Below, piece after piece: positions 6,942 through 42,730 of a DNA stretch of 64,000 nucleotides; the stretch's first letter is position 1; the number at the start of each line of letters is the position of its first letter. Origin of the DNA: Alphaproteobacteria bacterium (GTDB lineage Bacteria > Pseudomonadota > Alphaproteobacteria > Elsterales > Elsteraceae). A program made the translations under genes and the position numbers. The DNA is taken from contig JAAFIC010000004.1 of NCBI GenBank assembly GCA_013298565.1, positions 1 through 64,000 on the forward strand. The letters are read 5' to 3'. The notes beneath the pieces were generated by a model. That model had not been told where the DNA came from. It saw nothing but the letters and a program-made list of their open reading frames with translations, and made no database searches.

Positions 6942-8086
6942 CCCGCCCGGCCCCGCAATCCGACGGCAAAAACGACACCCAGCGCCGAGAACAGCACCAT
7001 CGCATAATATCCGGCACCGCCAAACGCAGCATACAGTGGCCCAACAATCGTATAGGCCAACCCCGCCCCAATACCCAGCGGCAAGGCGGCATACAGCCCT
7101 TGCGCGCGGGCGGAAAGCCCCGGCGGGGTGCATTCGCTGAGGAGTTGCATAGCCCCCAAATGCGCTGCACCGAAGGTGAGGCCGTGTAATACCTGAACGA
7201 TAACCAGCACAGTGAAATCGCTGGTCGTGCCTAGCACCGCCCATCGAAAGGCACCCGCCAGCCCTGCGACCACGAGTAGTGCCACGGGACGCCGCAGTAT
7301 TCCGAAGCGCGGTACAATTGCGAACAAAATAATCTCAAACACCACGCCCTCGGCCCACAACCACCCGATTTGGTTTTTGCTCAGGCCCATCTGCTGCCAG
7401 TGTAGAGACGAAAAAGCGTAATAGAAGAGATGCGAATTTTGAAGCAACGCCGCCGTGAGATACAGGCGGCGCAGTGATCTTATCCGCAAAAGAACGGCAA
7501 AGCCTGTCACCATATCGCGCAAACTGGGGGCCGTGTTCCGGGCTGCCATCGGCGGATCAATCAAGCCTCGGCTGGCAATAAGCCCGAGCGAGACCAGACC
7601 TGCGGTGATGACGATAATCGGTGCAGGCCCGGTCTGCTCTAAAACCTGCCCCATTACCAGTGCCAGGACGAGAAACGAGGCTGACCCCCACAGCCGCACG
7701 CGACTATAGCTCAACCCCTCAGTCCGCGCTGCCGCCAAGGCTACCGCATCCGTCACGGTCACGACTGCCGACTGCAAGGCCGTCGCCAGCGCCGACAGCA
7801 GCAAGATCATCCAAAAGGAATAGGCGTTGGCGAGCAAGATCATCACCATAATCACGACCAGCAACGTCAAACTAATCAGGTCGCGTTTGCGGGTGATTTG
7901 ATCGGCAACTTGCCCCGCCATCAGTGTACACAGCACTTTCGCCGCCATGCCGACGGCAAACACTGACCCGATTTCGGACGGGGTGAGGCCACGATAATCG
8001 AACCAGACCGACAGAAACGGCGTCACCACGCCGAACGCACTATAGAAGGCGGCGAAGAACAGGCTGAAACGAAGATAGGTACTCAT
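6926..8086 (-). CDS. MFS transporter of the HcaT/nucleoside:H+ symporter-like type
   Basis: This is a 386-aa, twelve-helix major facilitator. The N-terminus (YLRFSLFFAAFYSAFGVVTP then FLSVWFDYRGLTPSEIG) is typical of the MFS_1-like/HcaT group, members of which import phenylpropionate or nucleosides. The first cytoplasmic loop (MAGQVADQITRKRD) fits the MFS signature loosely. The substrate is unknown. An upstream TTG/ATG extension to 8137 adds 17 polar residues unlike the family, so the start at 8086 is preferred. It is transcribed away from rdgB, with both promoters presumably in the 120-nt gap. Confidence 0.85.
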   Translation of the reverse strand: MSTYLRFSLFFAAFYSAFGVVTPFLSVWFDYRGLTPSEIGSVFAVGMAAKVLCTLMAGQVADQITRKRDLISLTLLVVIMVMILLANAYSFWMILLLSALATALQSAVVTVTDAVALAAARTEGLSYSRVRLWGSASFLVLALVMGQVLEQTGPAPIIVITAGLVSLGLIASRGLIDPPMAARNTAPSLRDMVTGFAVLLRIRSLRRLYLTAALLQNSHLFYYAFSSLHWQQMGLSKNQIGWLWAEGVVFEIILFAIVPRFGILRRPVALLVVAGLAGAFRWAVLGTTSDFTVLVIVQVLHGLTFGAAHLGAMQLLSECTPPGLSARAQGLYAALPLGIGAGLAYTIVGPLYAAFGGAGYYAMVLFSALGVVFAVGLRGRAGQAPQ

Positions 8087-16005: not shown

Positions 16006-16047
16006 CAGAGGCTTGCGCCGAGCGGGCACTTGGGTAATCCTCATCTT

Positions 16048-16611
16048 ATGAGCATGCTTCCTCCGCCCGCCGCCGTTCTGTTGCTGATTGATTTGCAACA
16101 AGCGATTGATCACCCCTCCTGGGGGCTTCGGAACAACCCGCAGGCCGAAGCCAATATCGCCCGGTTGCTGGCCCATTGGCGACAGAAGGGCTGGCCCGTG
16201 TGGCATGTGCGGCACGATTCATCCTCCCCCACCTCGCACTATCGGCTAGGGCAACCGGGGCATGACTTTAAGCCGGAAACGGCCCCGCTGCCGGACGAGT
16301 TGGTGATCGCCAAACGCACCAATAGCGCCTTCATCGGCACAGACCTTGACGCGCGCCTGCTAACCGGGCGGCACCCGGCGCTGGTGGTGGTCGGCGTCGT
16401 CACCAATAATTCGGTGGAAGCGACCGTACGAATGGCCGGAAACTTGGGCTTCACCACGTTTCTGGTCGAAGACGGCTGCTTCACCTTCGGCCTCAAAGAC
16501 TGGAACCGCGTGGAGCGCACCGCTGAAGAGGTCCACGCCTTCACCCTCGCCAACCTGGACGGGGAGTATTGCACAATCACAACGACGGCGGCGGTATTGG
16601 CGGAGGGTTAG
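16048..16611 (+). CDS. Isochorismatase-fold hydrolase lacking the catalytic cysteine
   Basis: This 187-aa protein shows the first triad residue in LLLIDLQQ and the lysine in IAKRTNSAFIGTDL. The nucleophile loop reads VTNNSVEATVRMAGNLGF, where cysteine hydrolases have TNxCVExTxRMA. Ser replaces the expected Cys, so hydrolysis by a thioester route is unlikely. True isochorismatases (vinyl-ether hydrolases) also lack that cysteine, so other chemistry is possible. The ATG at 16048 is used; a TTG at 16030 is a weaker alternative. The next gene starts only 4 nt past its stop, and its ribosome site lies within this gene. Confidence 0.85.
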   Translation: MSMLPPPAAVLLLIDLQQAIDHPSWGLRNNPQAEANIARLLAHWRQKGWPVWHVRHDSSSPTSHYRLGQPGHDFKPETAPLPDELVIAKRTNSAFIGTDLDARLLTGRHPALVVVGVVTNNSVEATVRMAGNLGFTTFLVEDGCFTFGLKDWNRVERTAEEVHAFTLANLDGEYCTITTTAAVLAEG

Positions 16612-16614
16612 GCG

Positions 16615-18252
16615 TTGATCGCAAAAATGAGTATTTTCATTTCAGAAATACCAAAATCTCAATTGAATAAAGGAGATTATATATTCTTAGAATCTTCTAT
16701 TAACCGAAATCGTATTGCAAAATCCCTAGATTATATGAGCTTAAACTACGATACCAATCGCCCTGGTATAGGAAAAATTATACAAGTTGGAGAAAATTAC
16801 TTTCATGTGAAAATTTGGGAGCATATCTATAGAATTAAAAGATCAACACTTTCAAATACTGTACAGCGCGTTCATCCGTGGCTCTATCATCTCTCGTTTT
16901 ATTTTTGGGCAGAAACTTTGCTCCGCAGTGAAATTGCGGAATCTCAAATATTTTTACGGACATACAATAATAAATCTAACAGATTAACTTCTCTATGGCT
17001 AAAAAAAACACGCGGTTCTCTTCCTATAATTACCGCTCTTGACGGGCGAGTACGCTGGCCGATACTCCGTAGATTGCGTGCTGGTCTGCGTGTTCGTCTG
17101 GCGCGTTGGGGATTTTTTCCTTGGGCAGGTGGTTTTGGAGACTGGGGCCTCTTAATGGACCAAATTGGGGTTGAAATTTCATTTGAATATCATGGCATCG
17201 ACCGTATTCTTTGGTTAAATCAAATCCGTCTTCATCGCAACGGAAACATACACCTAACCGGCATTGACTTAGAGGAAGAGGAAATACGGACTTATAGGCT
17301 TGATAAAATTTATAATGTTTCAGTTCCGGGCGCAGAAAATTTTAATTCAGATGATTTTTATTGGGAAATTTACTCGTTAGTGCACTCCCGCCGTTCCTGG
17401 AAAGGTATCTGGGATAATTTGCAAGACCAAAATAAACGGCCAACTTCTCCAGATTTCGGTTTCCTCGGTCTCTCAATCGAGGCTATTGGTAACTATACAA
17501 GACGAATCATAAAAATACCGTCTCATTTTCGGAATTTAAGATTAAAACTAAAGGAGAGTTATGCCCGATTGAAATATCGCTGCCGGCGGTTCTCTCGGCG
17601 AATTATTGGGGTTTGGCGATACCGTACAGCCCCTCCCCTTGCTCTTCGAGTATCTTACGGGGCAAAAAATCAATTTCTCACACGCTTAAAAACGGCAATT
17701 CTTAATTTGCAACAAAAGAAAATAGAACACATAACATGTTTACATACATTGAAGTCTATTGTTGGAAATACATTTCTAAGTCGATTTTATCTTAAATTTT
17801 TATTAGAAGCTGTAATTATTGAGGCGCGCAACGATGAGATGATTTCCAAAAAAGATCTTTCTTTATTAACTGATATTTTAACGCTATCCTTCAGTATTGG
17901 CACTCATATTACCTTGGCTCAACGGCAAAAAGCATACACGCTTTATGAAGAAGCTTATGGGCGTCAGCCCGGCATGATAAGATTACGCGGCGGTCAATTT
18001 AGGCGTCGTGGGCAGAGCCGTTTTTTATTGTTCGCTGAGTCTTATCTGGCCTCCCTTTATAATTTAACACCTAACCTCCCGCCGCACCGGGATTTAGAGG
18101 CTCACGAGGCTCCGTACTGGGAAAGTTTTTATCGAGCCAACGCCTATTTTCTAAGTTCTTGGAGCCGTAAGCGCTTTACGTTTGACGCTAAGACTGTGGT
18201 TAGATTGAAACTTATCGTGGCTTGGTGGTCAGACCCCGCCGACGCCCCTTGA
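16615..18252 (+). CDS. Uncharacterised AT-rich 545-aa protein with a WYL-like segment
   Basis: I do not recognise this protein as a whole. It is clearly more AT-rich than both neighbours, uses rare-looking codons (ATA, AGA, TTA) and is strongly basic, all signs of horizontal acquisition. Residues about 184-235 look like a WYL-type beta-barrel: a VEISFEYHG strand, alternating strands, then RTYRLDKI, the typical R-x-(F/Y)-R-L-D-(K/R)-I ending. The flanks carry many Arg/Lys and aromatic residues, and a helical region near 400-440 (LLEAVIIEARNDEMISKK) is faintly TerB-like. The TTG start at 16615 has GGAGG at 8 nt inside the previous gene; an ATG at 16627 is the alternative. Confidence 0.75.
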   Translation: MIAKMSIFISEIPKSQLNKGDYIFLESSINRNRIAKSLDYMSLNYDTNRPGIGKIIQVGENYFHVKIWEHIYRIKRSTLSNTVQRVHPWLYHLSFYFWAETLLRSEIAESQIFLRTYNNKSNRLTSLWLKKTRGSLPIITALDGRVRWPILRRLRAGLRVRLARWGFFPWAGGFGDWGLLMDQIGVEISFEYHGIDRILWLNQIRLHRNGNIHLTGIDLEEEEIRTYRLDKIYNVSVPGAENFNSDDFYWEIYSLVHSRRSWKGIWDNLQDQNKRPTSPDFGFLGLSIEAIGNYTRRIIKIPSHFRNLRLKLKESYARLKYRCRRFSRRIIGVWRYRTAPPLALRVSYGAKNQFLTRLKTAILNLQQKKIEHITCLHTLKSIVGNTFLSRFYLKFLLEAVIIEARNDEMISKKDLSLLTDILTLSFSIGTHITLAQRQKAYTLYEEAYGRQPGMIRLRGGQFRRRGQSRFLLFAESYLASLYNLTPNLPPHRDLEAHEAPYWESFYRANAYFLSSWSRKRFTFDAKTVVRLKLIVAWWSDPADAP

Positions 18253-18311: not shown

Positions 18312-18503
18312 ATGACTGTCGCACTTAAGCCGGTCGAAACCATTCTGGTTGATACCTCCACTATCCCGTGTGATGGCGACGGCGGGGCACTGGGGCATCC
18401 GCGCGTCTATCTCAATATCGAAGCGGCAGGCCGGGTTGAATGCCCCTACTGTGGGCGGGAATATGTGTTGAGAGAGGGCGCGAAGAGCCACGCGGGCCAT
18501 TAA
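18312..18503 (+). CDS. CHCC zinc-finger protein (NDUFS6-like)
   Basis: This 63-aa protein has the C-H-C-C arrangement of the zf-CHCC family: Cys in STIPCDGD, His in LGHPRVY, and the pair CPYC. Homologues include the mitochondrial complex I subunit NDUFS6, and the alphaproteobacterial proteins are thought to bind zinc in a complex I-related role. The gene ends 4 nt before the polA GTG start, so the two are probably cotranscribed. Confidence 0.9.
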   Translation: MTVALKPVETILVDTSTIPCDGDGGALGHPRVYLNIEAAGRVECPYCGREYVLREGAKSHAGH

Positions 18504-18507
18504 TTCC

Positions 18508-21312
18508 GTGACCCAAAACACCGTGACTGGCAAGACTCTCTATCTCGTCGATGGCTCGGGCTTTATTTTCCGCGCCTATCACGCGCTGCCGCCAATGTCC
18601 CGCCCTGATGGCGTACAGGTGAACGCCGTCTATGGCTTCACCAATATGTTGGCCCGGCTGCTGGGCGATGCGGGGGCCGAGCGGGTGGCGGTGATTTTCG
18701 ACGTGTCGCGCCAGTCGTTTCGCACGGAGCTTTATCCGCAGTACAAAGCGCACCGCCCGCCCGCACCGGAAGATTTAATCCCGCAGTTCGCGCTGATCCG
18801 GGAGGCGACGCGCGCCTTCAATGTCCCCGCGATTGAGCTTGAGGGATTCGAGGCCGACGATTTGATCGCCGCTTATGCCGCCGCCGAAATCGCGGAAGGC
18901 GGCGATGTGATTATCGTCTCCTCCGATAAGGATTTGATGCAGCTTATCCGCCCCGGCGTGTCGCTGCTCGATCCGATGAAGAACAAGCCGATTGGCGTGG
19001 CGGAAGTGCTGGAGAAATTCGGGGTTCCGCCGGAGAAAGTCGTCGATGTGCAGGCGCTCATGGGCGATAGTACCGATAATGTGCCGGGCGTGCCGGGTAT
19101 CGGCCAGAAAACCGCCGCCGAGCTGATTAATCTTTATGGCGATCTCGATACGCTGCTGGCGCGGGCGGGGGAAATCAAACAACCCAAACGCCGCCAAAGC
19201 CTAATCGACCACGCCGATCTTGCCCGCATTTCGCGTGAACTCGTGCGCCTGCGCGAAGACGCCCCCCTGCCGGTGGCATTGCCAGAGCTTGATAAGCGCA
19301 CGCCTGACGCGGACGTGCTGAAAGAATTTCTGATCGCGCAGAATTTCCGCTCGCTGCTCTCAAAACTACTCGGGCCGGAGGGGGTGAAACTCGCCGTTGC
19401 CCGCGCTGCTGCCACGCCTGCCCCCACCGTCGCCCCCGCTTCCGGCAGTGTAACGCTGCCGACGCCCGTCGATGCTCCCCGGAATTACGAACTTGTGCAA
19501 ACGCGCGACCGGCTGGACCACTGGATCGCCCGCGCCCATGCGGTTGGCACCGTCGCGTTCGATACGGAAACGACCAGCCTCAATGCCGCCTCCGCAAGCC
19601 TCGTCGGCGTTTCGTTGGCGGTCGCACCGGGGGAAGCCTGCTATATCCCGCTCGGCCACGGCACGCCCGGCGGGCAACTCGATCTCGGCGGCGACCGCCC
19701 GCAGCAGCTTCCGTTGATCGAGGCGCTGGACGCGCTGAAACCGCTGTTGCTCGACCAAAGCGTGCTCAAAATCGGCCAGAATCTGAAGTACGATATGGTC
19801 GTGCTCGAAAAATACGGCGTGGCGATTGCGCCTTACGACGATACGATGCTGTTGTCCTACGTGCTCGATGGCGGCAAGCACGGGCATGGAATGGATGAGT
19901 TGGCCGACCGCCACCTCGGCATCACCACGATTTCCTATGAGGACGTGTGCGGCAAGGGCAAGAAGCAGATCGGCTTTGCCGAAGTGGCGTTGGACCGCGC
20001 CCTCGCCTATGCCGCCGAAGATGCCGATGTTACCCTGCGCCTGCATTCGGTGCTAAAAGCTCGGTTGCTGCTGGAGCGGCAAGTGCATCTTTACGAGAGC
20101 ATCGACCGGCCCATCCCAACGATTATCACGGCGATGGAAACCACTGGCGCGCTGCTGGACCGCACCCGCCTGCGCGAACTTTCCACCGATTTCGGGCAAC
20201 GCATGGCGGTGCTGGAAAGCCAGATTCACGATGCGGCGGGGGAAGTGTTCAACATCGCCTCGCCAAAGCAGTTGGGCGAAATCCTGTTCGGCAAACTCGG
20301 CCTCGCCGACCAGGGCAAGACCAGCAAAACCGATAATTATTCAACCTCTGTAGACGTGCTGGAAGAGTTGCGCGCCAGTCACCCCGTGCCGGGGCTGGTG
20401 CTGGAGTATCGGCAGTTAGCGAAGCTGAAATCCACCTATGCCGACGCCCTGGTAGAGCAAATCAACCCGCGCACAGGCCGGGTTCACACCAGCTTCGCCC
20501 TGGCGCTGACCACCACGGGGCGGTTGTCGTCGTCCGACCCGAATTTGCAGAATATCCCTATTCGTACGGAAGAGGGCCGCAAAATCCGCGAAGCCTTCAT
20601 TGCGCCGGACGGGCATAAACTGATTGCCATCGACTATAGCCAGATCGAATTGCGCCTGTTGGCCGAAGTCGCGGGTATTGATGCGTTGAAAGAAGCCTTC
20701 GCCGCTGGCGTGGATATTCACGCGCTTACCGCCTCGCAGGTGTTCGATGTGCCGTTGGAGACGATGGATAAGGAAACCCGGCGCAAGGCGAAAGCCATCA
20801 ACTTCGGCATTATTTACGGCATGAGTGCGTTCGGCCTCGCCCAGAATATCGGCGTTAGCCAGGGCCAAGCGCAGGCGTTCATCCGGGCCTATTTCGAGCG
20901 CTACCCCGGCATTCGGGCGTATATGGACCGAATGAAGGCGTTCGCCAAAGAGCATCAGTTCGTCACAACCCTGTTTGGGCGGCGCTGCTGGGTGCCGACG
21001 ATTGCCGATAAAAATGCCGCCCGCCGCAGCTTCGCCGAACGCCAAGCCATCAACGCCCCCCTGCAAGGCACTGCCGCCGACATCATGAAGCGGGCGATGA
21101 TTAAGGTTTCAGCAACGCTCGCCGAAACCAAACTGCCCGCGAAAATGATCTTAACCGTTCACGACGAACTTTTGTTCGAGGTGCCGGATAGCCATATCGA
21201 GGACGCCATTGCCATCTTAAGCCCAGTGATGGAAAACGCTGCCGGGTCTGTGGTATCGGTACCCCTGATTTGTGAAGCCGGGGTCGGCCAGACCTGGGCT
21301 TCAGCGCACTAG
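18508..21312 (+). CDS. polA: DNA polymerase I
   Basis: This 934-aa enzyme has all three domains. The 5'-3' exonuclease is at about 1-290 (YLVDGSGFIFRAYHALPP; GDSTDNVPGVPGIGQKTA). The 3'-5' proofreading domain is at about 330-530, with an intact DTETTSLN motif, and the polymerase domain runs to the end (AIDYSQIELRLLAEVAGI; RRKAKAINFGIIYGMSAFGL; the palm motif VHDELLFEVP). It acts in Okazaki fragment maturation and repair. The GTG at 18508 directly after the zinc-finger gene is the natural start. Confidence 0.97.
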   Translation: MTQNTVTGKTLYLVDGSGFIFRAYHALPPMSRPDGVQVNAVYGFTNMLARLLGDAGAERVAVIFDVSRQSFRTELYPQYKAHRPPAPEDLIPQFALIREATRAFNVPAIELEGFEADDLIAAYAAAEIAEGGDVIIVSSDKDLMQLIRPGVSLLDPMKNKPIGVAEVLEKFGVPPEKVVDVQALMGDSTDNVPGVPGIGQKTAAELINLYGDLDTLLARAGEIKQPKRRQSLIDHADLARISRELVRLREDAPLPVALPELDKRTPDADVLKEFLIAQNFRSLLSKLLGPEGVKLAVARAAATPAPTVAPASGSVTLPTPVDAPRNYELVQTRDRLDHWIARAHAVGTVAFDTETTSLNAASASLVGVSLAVAPGEACYIPLGHGTPGGQLDLGGDRPQQLPLIEALDALKPLLLDQSVLKIGQNLKYDMVVLEKYGVAIAPYDDTMLLSYVLDGGKHGHGMDELADRHLGITTISYEDVCGKGKKQIGFAEVALDRALAYAAEDADVTLRLHSVLKARLLLERQVHLYESIDRPIPTIITAMETTGALLDRTRLRELSTDFGQRMAVLESQIHDAAGEVFNIASPKQLGEILFGKLGLADQGKTSKTDNYSTSVDVLEELRASHPVPGLVLEYRQLAKLKSTYADALVEQINPRTGRVHTSFALALTTTGRLSSSDPNLQNIPIRTEEGRKIREAFIAPDGHKLIAIDYSQIELRLLAEVAGIDALKEAFAAGVDIHALTASQVFDVPLETMDKETRRKAKAINFGIIYGMSAFGLAQNIGVSQGQAQAFIRAYFERYPGIRAYMDRMKAFAKEHQFVTTLFGRRCWVPTIADKNAARRSFAERQAINAPLQGTAADIMKRAMIKVSATLAETKLPAKMILTVHDELLFEVPDSHIEDAIAILSPVMENAAGSVVSVPLICEAGVGQTWASAH

Positions 21313-28127: not shown

Positions 28128-28146
28128 GAAAGCGGGCTAACCCGCC
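28128..28146 (-). terminator. Possible terminator of the second chemoreceptor gene
   Basis: On the minus strand GCGGG-TTAG-CCCGC, which includes the stop codon, is followed by TTTCTGTTT. The stem is only five to six base pairs, so this is a modest candidate. Confidence 0.4.
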
Positions 28147-29846
28147 CGAACGCTAGACAGAAAATGATCCACCTGTCGGCGTAGGTTTTCGGACTGCTCC
28201 AGAAACCCGCCTGCAACCGATAGCACCTGTTGTGCCGCAGCGCCGGTATGTTCCGAGGCAGTGGTGACGTGAACCATACTTGCCGTAACTTCCCGCGTTC
28301 CGGCGCTGGCTTGAGTAACACTGCGCGAAATTTCATGGGCCGCCATCGACTGTTGCGTCACCGTTGTGGCAATGGTAGCCGTTACATCATCTATTTCGTG
28401 GATCGTGTTGGTAATCGTTGCCAGCGCTTTCACGGAGTTATCGGCAGCGGCTTGAATTTCGTTGATTTTCTGAATGATGCTTTCGGTTGCTTGGGCGGTT
28501 TGATTGGCAAGGCCCTTCACTTCGCTGGCAACAACGGCAAAACCTTTGCCCGCTTCGCCCGCACGGGCAGCTTCGATGGTTGCATTCAGCGCCAGCAAAT
28601 TGGTTTGACCCGCAATCGTTTGAATGAGCTTCACAACATCGCCAATTTGCTGGGCCGCCGAGGTCAAACTTTGGATCGTTGTATCCGTTTTTCCGGCTTC
28701 GGCCACCGCCCGCGCGGCAATGGAGGCCGATTTTTCAACTTGACGACCAATCTCAGCCACCGAGGACGAAAGTTCTTCAGTGGCGGAGGCAACCGACTCG
28801 ACATTGGAAGACGCCTGCTCGGTCGCACCAGCGACGATAACTGACTGCTGACAAGCATTATCGCTGGCCGAAACCATTGATTGCGCGACAGTTTCCAGCT
28901 CATGCGCGGACTGGGCCTGCTGAGTAATAAGCGTACCAACCGACTCTTGAAACCGCTGCGCCAAGCCAGCCATCATCGCCTGCTTTTCTAATTGAGCCTC
29001 GGCCTCGCGCTCGGCTTGCGATGCCACGAGCGCACGACGATCAATCTCACCTGCCCGGAAAATCCGCAAGGCATTCACCATTGCGCCGATTTCGTTGCGA
29101 ACATTATCGCCAACAATCTCAAAGTCGATGTCGCCCTTGGCAACCCGGCGCATAGAAACTTTAAGCCGACTGATTGGGCGCACCACCCAAAACATGAAAC
29201 CAAAACCCAAAATAAAGCACGAAATAAGAATAACACCACCAATAACCATGAACACTGTTTGAAAATTAGACCTATACTCTGCGAGATTGGAAAATTTACC
29301 ATCAATTATTTGCGCGTTTGCGATAAGAATATTGTTCGTTATCATAGAAAGCTCAGTCATGCCTGCCGTGATCGACTTAGCGTTTTCATCGAAAGGCTCC
29401 ATTAGGGCATTCCCGGCAACACGGCCCTTTTCCAAATAAGTATTGGCCATTCTTTTCCCCAGATCATAATAAACTGGAAAATCTATTTTTATTCTTCTGA
29501 GAGACGCTAAAATGATTTTCGCCTTCATAGTTTCAGCTAAAGTTTCAGCTGTCTGTATATCTGAAAAAAAAGACTGAGCGTGCGCTTCCGCATCTTGCAA
29601 ACCTTCAGCATCATGCGTTGCAGAAACATCTGTTAAATATTGTTGCACTTGAATAAGATGTATTTTCATTTCTGTTACAGATTTATGTAACAAAAAATTG
29701 TTTGTATTTTGTATAACAGCTATGTCCCTGACCTCATCAATAAGCATTTGCTCTTGTTGCTGTGCGAATAAATTAGCACCATATCCTATCACAATAGAAG
29801 CTGTTACCACGGCCAAGGCGATATATACTTTAACTCTAATGAGCAT
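28137..29846 (-). CDS. Methyl-accepting chemotaxis protein with AT-rich sensor half
   Basis: This 569-aa receptor has a membrane helix at 8-28, a helical periplasmic domain (about 30-205) of four-helix-bundle type, a second helix ([20 protein letters not shown]), a HAMP domain ([20 protein letters not shown]) and a signalling domain with the tip [20 protein letters not shown]. Bases about 29180-29846, coding for the sensor and first membrane segments, are markedly AT-rich. The cytoplasmic half has the usual GC-rich composition. This fits replacement of the sensor module by recombination. The ligand is unknown. Confidence 0.93.
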
Positions 29847-40494: not shown

Positions 40495-40523
40495 TTGACG
40501 GAGGAACCCGCTCTCCTTACGAT
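40495..40523 (+). promoter_or_regulatory. Sigma-70-type promoter for the btuB operon
   Basis: TTGACG (40495-40500), a 17-nt spacer and TACGAT (40518-40523) match the housekeeping consensus well. The expected start site near 40530 coincides with the 5' boundary of the cobalamin riboswitch. Confidence 0.65.
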
Positions 40524-40530
40524 TTATATC

Positions 40531-40735
40531 AGGATTGGTCGCCCATCCGTGGGCGTGAAAAGGGAATTCGGACAGGTTTTCGCCAAGAGAATCGAAGCCG
40601 AGCTGCCCCCGCAACTGTAGATACCGAGCCGCACCCGTCTTGGGGTTTCCCAAGGTCAAACATCACTGGCGCTTTTTGCGTTCGGGAAGATGGGGTGGCG
40701 GCGATGACGTATCAGCCAGGAGACCTGCCAATCCA
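40531..40735 (+). ncRNA. Cobalamin (B12) riboswitch
   Basis: The leader contains the conserved CTGCCCCCGCAACTG core (about 40603-40617) and the B12 box GCCAGGAGACCTGCC (40715-40729), in correct order and spacing. It precedes btuB, so adenosylcobalamin should lower expression of the uptake operon. Downstream of the aptamer a GGGGTGCGC/GCGCCCC pairing and an ACGG/CCGT hairpin lie before the AAAAGGAG ribosome site. No U-tract terminator is seen, which favours control of translation. Confidence 0.93.
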
Positions 40736-40861
40736 ACGCGCGCGCGTCGCAACCACCAGCCGGGGTGCGCTGAGGGGACGGCTCCAACCGTTATGCGATT
40801 GCGCCCCTCGTAAGCCGAAACGCTTGCGGGGCCAATTGCTGTTCGGAAAAGGAGCGCTTTT

Positions 40862-42730
40862 ATGCGTTTGTCCTCATGCTTGCTTGTGTCTGTGTCCTTG
40901 CTCGGCCTTCCCGCGCTTGCTCCCCCCGCGCTTGCTCAAGGCGTCGGCGCGCCGCCCGTCGAGGGACCGGTTGCCCTATTGGAGCCGGTCAATGTTACCG
41001 CTCAACGCCTGCCCAGCCGGGCCGCGGAAACCGGCAGCGCCCTAACCATACTCACCCCAACCGAGATTGAGCGGCGCGGCGCGGTCGAAGTGCTGGACCT
41101 GTTAAAACGCGCCCCCGGTGTTGCCATTAGCCGCAATGGCGGTTTTGGCGCTACCTCGGGCTTACGCATTCGCGGGTCTGAGACGGGGCAAGTGTTGGTG
41201 CTCATTGATGGCGTGCGTGTCAATGATAGTACCGATATCAGCGCGGCCTATGATTTCTCCGGCCTTACCGTCGATGGCGTCGAGCGGATCGAAATCTTAC
41301 GCGGGCCGCAGTCGGCACTCTATGGCAATGACGCGATGGGCGGGGTCGTGAATATCATCACTCGCAAAGGGCGTGGACCCGCCAAAATCACTGGGCTGGT
41401 GGAGGCCGGAAGCTATCAAACTTTCCGCCAGCAAGCCGGACTGTCGGGCGCGCAGCAAGGGTTTGATTACGCCCTCACCGCCGCCCACACGCAAACCAAA
41501 GGCTTTTCGCGCATTTACGCGGGGCCGGAAAAAGACGGCGCGGAGCACCTGAGCCTAACAGGGCGGGGCGGCTATCGGTTTTCCGAGCAGTTTCGCTTGG
41601 GCGTTTCCGGCGGCTATCAAAAGCTCGATGCCGATTTCGACCCCGGCGCTACCCGCGACGGCCCGGCCTCGGTCGCCACCGAAAAACTCTTCGGGCGCGT
41701 CGATGGCACGCTGACGCTGCTGGACGGCACGTTCGAGAATATCCTCTCCCTCACGGGCAGCGATACCGACCGCGCTTACGACGAGCCGTTGGGTTTCTAC
41801 CGCACCTCGCGCTACGAGGGCCGCAGCTTTGGCGCAGAGTATCAGGGCAACCTAACGCTGTTCGATAAGGACGTGCTGACCGGCGGGCTTGCAACCCGCA
41901 CCGATACAGCCAGCACCACGATCGTGGGCAAGGCCGGGCCGCGCTTTAGCCAAGATACCCAAAGCGCCTTCGCCCAGTACAAGTGGAAAGCGACGGAAGC
42001 CTTCACTGTCACTCTCGGCGGGCGGTATGATGATGTGGAGAGCTTCGGCGGCAAGGGCACTTACCGCGCTGCCGCCGCTTACCGCATTGCTGGCACAGGC
42101 ACAACCCTTCGCAGCAGCTACGGCACGGGCGCGAAAGCCCCTACCTTATTCCAGCGCTTCGATCCGCAGTTCGGCAATAGGAATCTCCAGCTCGAAAGCA
42201 GCCGGGGTTTCGATGCCGGGATCGAGCAGGAGGTGAGCAAGACTCTGACCCTCTCGGCGGGTGTTTTCCAAAATCGCTACCGCAACCTTATTCAGTACCA
42301 AGGCGCGGGCTACACGAACGTGGGCCGGGCAACGACGCGCGGGATAGAGTTGGGCGCAACGTGGACTGGCGTTCCAGACCTGACCCTTGCCGCCAATTAC
42401 ACTTTCTTAGAAGCGGAAGACGGCGCGACGCATCTCCGCCTCCCCCGCCGCCCGAAGCATACGCTGAACTTGACTGCCGACTACGCGATTACCGAGACAT
42501 GGCAGTTGGGCGGCGCGATGCGCTTCGTCACGGAACAGAAGGATAATGGCTTCAGTGCCGACAAAATCCCGCCGGGGCTGATTTTTGATGCGCGCACGTC
42601 CTACAAAATCACTAACGGCGCGCAACTCTACCTGCGGGCCGACAATCTGTTCGATGCCGATGGCCGCGAAACCGCCCGCTATCGCGCCCCTGGCCGCTCG
42701 GCTTATGTGGGCGTGAAGGCGGAGTTCTAG
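40862..42730 (+). CDS. btuB: TonB-dependent vitamin B12 receptor BtuB
   Basis: This 622-aa outer-membrane receptor has a signal peptide (LLVSVSLLGLPALAPPALAQ), a TonB-box-like VNVTAQR, a plug domain (GLRIRGSETGQVLVLIDGVR; RIEILRGPQSALYGNDAMGG), a 22-strand barrel and a terminal Phe. BtuB identity rests on the riboswitch upstream and btuCD downstream, together with size. It imports cobalamins with TonB energy. The ATG has AAAAGGAG at 7 nt. Confidence 0.92.
   Translation: MRLSSCLLVSVSLLGLPALAPPALAQGVGAPPVEGPVALLEPVNVTAQRLPSRAAETGSALTILTPTEIERRGAVEVLDLLKRAPGVAISRNGGFGATSGLRIRGSETGQVLVLIDGVRVNDSTDISAAYDFSGLTVDGVERIEILRGPQSALYGNDAMGGVVNIITRKGRGPAKITGLVEAGSYQTFRQQAGLSGAQQGFDYALTAAHTQTKGFSRIYAGPEKDGAEHLSLTGRGGYRFSEQFRLGVSGGYQKLDADFDPGATRDGPASVATEKLFGRVDGTLTLLDGTFENILSLTGSDTDRAYDEPLGFYRTSRYEGRSFGAEYQGNLTLFDKDVLTGGLATRTDTASTTIVGKAGPRFSQDTQSAFAQYKWKATEAFTVTLGGRYDDVESFGGKGTYRAAAAYRIAGTGTTLRSSYGTGAKAPTLFQRFDPQFGNRNLQLESSRGFDAGIEQEVSKTLTLSAGVFQNRYRNLIQYQGAGYTNVGRATTRGIELGATWTGVPDLTLAANYTFLEAEDGATHLRLPRRPKHTLNLTADYAITETWQLGGAMRFVTEQKDNGFSADKIPPGLIFDARTSYKITNGAQLYLRADNLFDADGRETARYRAPGRSAYVGVKAEF

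Follow-up and report, generated by a model that had tools for sequence, protein, structure and literature searches.

WYL domains are found mostly in transcription regulators, and the structure of one such protein, PafBC, as described in the same source, displays an Sm fold within an HTH-WYL-WCX order of domains (PMC6789036). The account of the domain by Makarova et al. (PMC4012209) describes the W, Y and L residues themselves as lacking strong conservation, in contrast to four basic residues and, often, a cysteine, and notes that WYL domains also occur fused to enzymatic domains. PafBC and DriD, both WYL proteins, are reported to bind ssDNA. The 545-aa protein considered here is encoded within a stretch of 64,000 nucleotides (the window), and shares with the WYL domain (PF13280) an in-register HLxG....E.RT[YF].LD.I pattern that resembles the second half of the domain. 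However, the resemblance spans less than half of the domain at a score below the Pfam cut-off and offers I-H-L where W-Y-L would be expected. Most members of the family bear a winged HTH, whereas this protein has none, and in contrast to the order of PafBC, no HTH of any kind is detectable in it.

A foreign gene in place of two native genes

The gene has a G+C content of 40.5%, compared to 58.6% for the window, and among all 1638-nt stretches of the 64 kb (mean G+C 0.587, sd 0.040) the minimum of 0.405 falls at position 16601. Its codon-position G+C of 0.46/0.41/0.35 differs from the 0.66/0.42/0.74 of polA, and its GC3 of 0.35 compares with values of 0.61-0.75 in the four neighbours measured. 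The frame is intact, with 545 codons uninterrupted by an internal stop, where a random frame of the same base composition would stay open with a chance of about 1e-15, and it specifies a basic protein (pI 10.1) carrying a net charge of +15 across residues 263-345. The original prediction of an AT-rich foreign gene encoding a basic 545-aa protein is thus borne out in both its parts. The TTG start is plausible because a GGAGGG sits 7 nt 5' of it and, at 4 nt past the preceding stop, the gene would be placed for translation within the native transcription unit. The features of the locus are collected in Table 1.

Table 1. Features of the locus, in window coordinates
Feature	Position	Strand	Remarks
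Isochorismatase-family gene, native left neighbour	16030..16611	+	Last codons unlike those of the congeners
Left border	16597..16615	.	Congener similarity stops within the last isochorismatase codons (about 16606)
GGAGGG, Shine-Dalgarno-like	16602..16607	+	7 nt before TTG; within the 3' end of the preceding gene; putative function
Foreign AT-rich gene	16615..18252	+	545 aa; TTG start; in-frame ATG at 16627
Core common to the pEJ01 protein	17005..18222 (residues 131-536)	+	24% identity
WYL-like stretch	17233..17319 (residues 207-235)	+	Pfam 16.7 bits, cut-off 21.8
Right border	18240..18252	.	Congener similarity restarts at about 18245-18246, within the final foreign-gene codons
Small native gene with CPYCGREY motif, right neighbour	18312..18503	+	Orthologue in both congeners
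polA, native	18508..21312	+	

Two congeners (G001 and G002, with polA of the source genome 87% and 95% identical to theirs, respectively) have the isochorismatase gene in close proximity to polA, with genes for a DUF2157-like membrane protein and a cytochrome c, as well as the small CPYC gene, between them. In the source genome, the same interval contains, apart from the small CPYC gene, only the foreign gene. The DUF2157 assignment comes from a sub-cut-off Pfam match in G002 that is absent in G001, the two proteins being 58% identical to each other. Between the isochorismatase gene and polA, the foreign gene has therefore taken over the position of two native genes, and the limits of similarity to the congeners define the event as the exchange of a two-gene segment of about 1.5 kb for a single-gene segment of 1.64 kb. 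At the right border, the TGA stop of the foreign gene (18250-18252) itself falls in sequence common to the source genome and G002. The native genes persist in G001 and G002, so the simplest placement of the exchange is on the branch leading to the source genome, where it would have followed the split from the nearest congener compared. A search of the source genome, run without a positive control, gave no DUF2157-like gene, and the cytochrome c of the congeners has only a 39% paralogue there. The native pair is absent from the stretches around polA examined in six other family members, which are too short for this to carry much weight.

The sharp change predicted at the borders of the gene is mirrored in this comparison, in which similarity to the congeners stops and restarts at its two ends. 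The accompanying view of the gene as inserted in a GC-rich unit holds as to foreign origin and fails as to mere insertion. A simple insertion is ruled out by the two native genes, some 1.5 kb, missing from the site, and a transposon, insertion sequence or cassette is ruled out in turn, there being no repeats at either border and no transposase or integrase domain in the single ORF of the foreign gene. The suggested comparison of the site among relatives found no vertical conservation, in that both congeners carry other genes there and 59 related genomes yielded no relative (one match in 60, the source genome itself).

Two further features of the window are recorded here as separate observations. 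A methyl-accepting chemotaxis protein gene (HAMP, MCPsignal) at 28137-29846 on the minus strand is AT-rich, down to 0.35 G+C, in the 5' half that encodes the sensor part and not in the 3' half, which possibly reflects a swapped sensor domain. A cobalamin riboswitch (Rfam RF00174, 89 bits) lies at 40519-40746 on the plus strand, upstream of an ORF at 40862.

A protein family shared with Paracoccaceae plasmids

All searches together returned two relatives of the protein, both on plasmids from water-dwelling Paracoccaceae. The first, the hypothetical protein WP_071167418.1 (LPB142_RS17720) of Rhodobacter xanthinilyticus pEJ01, was recovered at E 2e-5 from 72,556 plasmid records, and its alignment along the common core (E 1e-17 as a single comparison) has a score reached by none of 200 shuffles. 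Like the 545-aa protein it is basic (pI 11.3), whereas its gene is GC-rich and situated on a conjugative plasmid, directly after VirD4. The second, WP_085378998.1 (B0A89_RS14240) of a Paracoccus contaminans plasmid, was reached at E 0.01 from the 545-aa protein, and the same place was found independently from the pEJ01 protein at E 6; within the locus the E is 2e-8. This copy lies beside repABC, between repC and a regulator with a sugar-transport operon, and in contrast to the intact gene its frame is interrupted by stops, the protein being a fragment of 179 aa. It nevertheless preserves the conserved centre, including the motifs G-x-L-[MI]-D, L-x-Q, H-x-N and HL-x-G, and the residues invariant in all three members include G178, L180, D182, Y192, R197, L201, Q203, H207, N209, H213, L214 and G216.

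The correspondence may extend beyond the core on pEJ01 (NZ_CP017782.1; L002 7594-8178 and 8007-9347), where codon periodicity switches frame near 8000, close to the annotated start, and codon-position G+C reveals an unannotated coding stretch of about 135 codons 5' of the annotated gene. This stretch is sized like the N-terminal part of the 545-aa protein, but it lies in another frame and its similarity to that part is marginal; together with the annotated gene, it represents a copy split by a frameshift or, alternatively, a pair of overlapping genes. By local alignment, homology of the stretch to the first 130 residues is unsupported, 288 of 500 shuffles reaching the score; by global alignment it is marginal, with 36, 174 and 57 of 2000 shuffles doing so under three scorings, leaving position, length and coding periodicity as the only backing for the correspondence.

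No relative was found among the other genomes sampled from the class (384 genomes; 1/385 with the source genome itself) or from the phylum (397 genomes; 1/398), two samples that overlap. A single match in a further family sample (G077; 1/397, E 0.0085) was rejected, as its open frame gave a best blastp E of 2.1. Another family sample (G030), presumably of Rhodobacterales as judged by a SAM-SAH riboswitch, gave three matches in 394 that were all rejected: one (L051) reads as a Y-family polymerase by eye, without a family search, one (L049) appears by eye to be a shadow frame of a transporter-like gene, and one (L050) is interrupted by a stop, in a frame of non-coding appearance. A phage origin was likewise rejected, with no relative in 50,697 phage records or in four viral-contig scans; two genome-contig scans also returned none, although such contig scans depend on exact matches of short peptides and lack sensitivity at this distance. 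Searching the plasmids with the foreign gene at the DNA level gave no match, and searching the PDB by sequence gave no convincing relative (best E 0.26 in one of the searches). No match to the 545-aa protein exceeds the curated cut-offs of Pfam and NCBIfam, and those from PADLOC and PHROGs are weak. The accession numbers and locus tags of both relatives are absent from the literature searched, and the protein family appears to be undescribed.

The WYL-like centre

The Pfam WYL model matches the 545-aa protein with an E of 0.0073, which falls short of the gathering score, and a WYL model fits it better than 997 of 1000 shuffles. PADLOC adds weak matches to CRISPR-associated WYL models (E 0.002 and 0.0037), with no match to an effector or core component. 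A profile of all three family members, compared with 25 WYL sequences taken from related genomes, gave an E of 0.003 that none of 200 column-shuffled decoys attained, and 15 of the 25 sequences scored above the 95th percentile of shuffles. The putative WYL barrel first placed at about residues 184-235 is thus retained as a similarity that exceeds decoys in the three-member comparison and set aside as a scored Pfam match, the stretch recognized being confined to residues 207-235. The AlphaFold model, computed without an alignment, is of unusable confidence (pLDDT 35.7 for the whole protein and 55.3 for residues 170-260), and a Foldseek search with this low-confidence fragment gave no match at E<=0.001. 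Since the score is sub-cut-off and structure prediction brings no confirmation, the label stops at WYL-like, and the protein is not filed as a member. Neither an HTH nor a nuclease was detected by Pfam, NCBIfam, PADLOC or PHROGs, in agreement with what had been anticipated from the sequence.

The strongest rival explanation holds the WYL resemblance to be a product of chance and the protein to be some other nucleic-acid-binding or conjugation-accessory protein of unknown fold. In its favour, aside from the sub-threshold Pfam score, a WYL model finds its match in the pEJ01 protein at a position that is not equivalent, with a score that 26 of 1000 shuffles reach, and neither that protein nor the one from P. 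contaminans has any Pfam or PADLOC match. The hhalign probabilities are also weak, at 10% for the three-member profile and 0.5% for the two-member core of the 545-aa and pEJ01 proteins, the latter lying under the maximum of 3.6% among 60 decoys. It was the addition of an independent third member, however, that lifted the in-register similarity above all 200 decoys, and a chance origin is regarded as a serious contender at odds somewhat short of even.

Plasmid context and alternative functions

The slot after VirD4, viewed in the best 13 of at least 5000 other plasmid records matching, is variable in its content. It holds a Hachiman HamA and helicase gene in a Gemmobacter aquarius plasmid (NZ_CP028920.1; L055 7537-10825), RelBE in two plasmids of the same species with the same antitoxin, ParDE in one, and hypothetical genes followed by a PIN/AbrB pair in another. 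The remaining plasmids present an S8 peptidase (one plasmid), an S8 peptidase with an ATP-binding protein (one), a relaxase directly (three), VirB11 on the other strand (one), DUF2478 with molybdenum-cofactor genes (one), or a hypothetical gene with an HTH gene (one). In none of the 13 does the stretch fetched after VirD4 contain a relative of the 545-aa protein, which argues that the gene is not a fixed part of the VirD4 conjugation machinery. A conflict role for the pEJ01 gene would be somewhat likelier, since the slot is variable and carries conflict genes in some plasmids. On pEJ01 itself, a 644-aa protein without a Pfam match is encoded between VirB11 and VirD4 (L002 3686-5620); its C-terminal part matches relaxase-annotated places in Paracoccus plasmids, and its N-terminal part matches places annotated TraO/primase or LPD7.

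A second rival would make the protein an accessory regulator or plasmid-maintenance protein with no defence role, its WYL-like or other small barrel responding to a metabolite while plasmid or conjugation genes are controlled through DNA or RNA bound by the basic regions. The plasmid relatives directly after VirD4 and after repC are consistent with such a function, as is a basic protein resembling a domain that PMC6789036 places mostly in transcription regulators. Against this stand the lack of an HTH or any other DNA-binding domain among those found and the absence of the gene from the fetched stretches of all 13 plasmids with a related VirD4, and the explanation is considered unlikely.

Rather unlikely as well is the notion that the gene is a passenger, recombination having swapped two dispensable genes for foreign DNA with no benefit from the new one. 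Both replaced genes were indeed lost and a single host genome was found, and, one or both of the plasmid copies being broken, retention on plasmids does not appear strong. Yet the intact 545-codon frame and a core conserved across very divergent relatives point to past selection for function.

A more elaborate scheme, in which the protein would sense an invasion signal and act directly and without a partner as a single-gene agent of plasmid-versus-phage or plasmid-versus-plasmid conflict, domesticated in a chromosome, with two small barrels (one N-terminal, one WYL-like) and a basic helical effector half in a single chain, is a distinctly long shot. The least credible explanation is an assembly or binning artefact that put a foreign segment into the contig by mistake. 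The genome does comprise 126 contigs and compositionally odd DNA can be misplaced, but the gene sits 16 kb into a contig of 86.5 kb with both flanks matching two congeners, and its borders coincide with gene ends rather than falling at random.

A probable plasmid-borne accessory gene and its arrival

Taken as a whole, the observations are best explained by plasmid cargo encoding a WYL-like sensor of nucleic acid or nucleotide that responds to an invasion or DNA-damage signal, a tentative reading to which a probability of about 0.4 is assigned. The arrival route is ordinary horizontal transfer, and the gene would be plasmid-mobile accessory cargo that recombination fixed in the chromosome. From its sequence and settings, it is probably a plasmid-borne accessory gene for a nucleic-acid or nucleotide sensor serving conflict or regulation. 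The basic regions of the protein would contact nucleic acid. With less assurance, the conserved centre may form a WYL-like (Sm/SH3-type) barrel for sensing a nucleotide or nucleic acid, the signal probably arising in phage or plasmid invasion or in DNA damage, and this barrel might then relay it to the C-terminal half, which is helical and rich in arginine.

A role in defence is possible. The single-gene defence module originally envisaged did not find support in the surroundings of the gene, as the ten neighbours scanned include no defence genes and are all metabolic or housekeeping; it is in some of the slots related to that of pEJ01 that Hachiman or toxin-antitoxin genes reside. These plasmid slots place a conflict role slightly ahead of plain regulation, but its odds stay below even, as no effector can be recognised, the P. 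contaminans copy is broken and the neighbours are not defence genes.

Should the rival explanations hold, the gene would be an ordinary orphan gained by horizontal transfer. The two-for-one replacement is a clean case of plasmid-type cargo turned chromosomal and, if the centre of the protein is a WYL-type sensor without a DNA-binding domain, the family would exemplify an architecture that couples sensing to something besides transcription.
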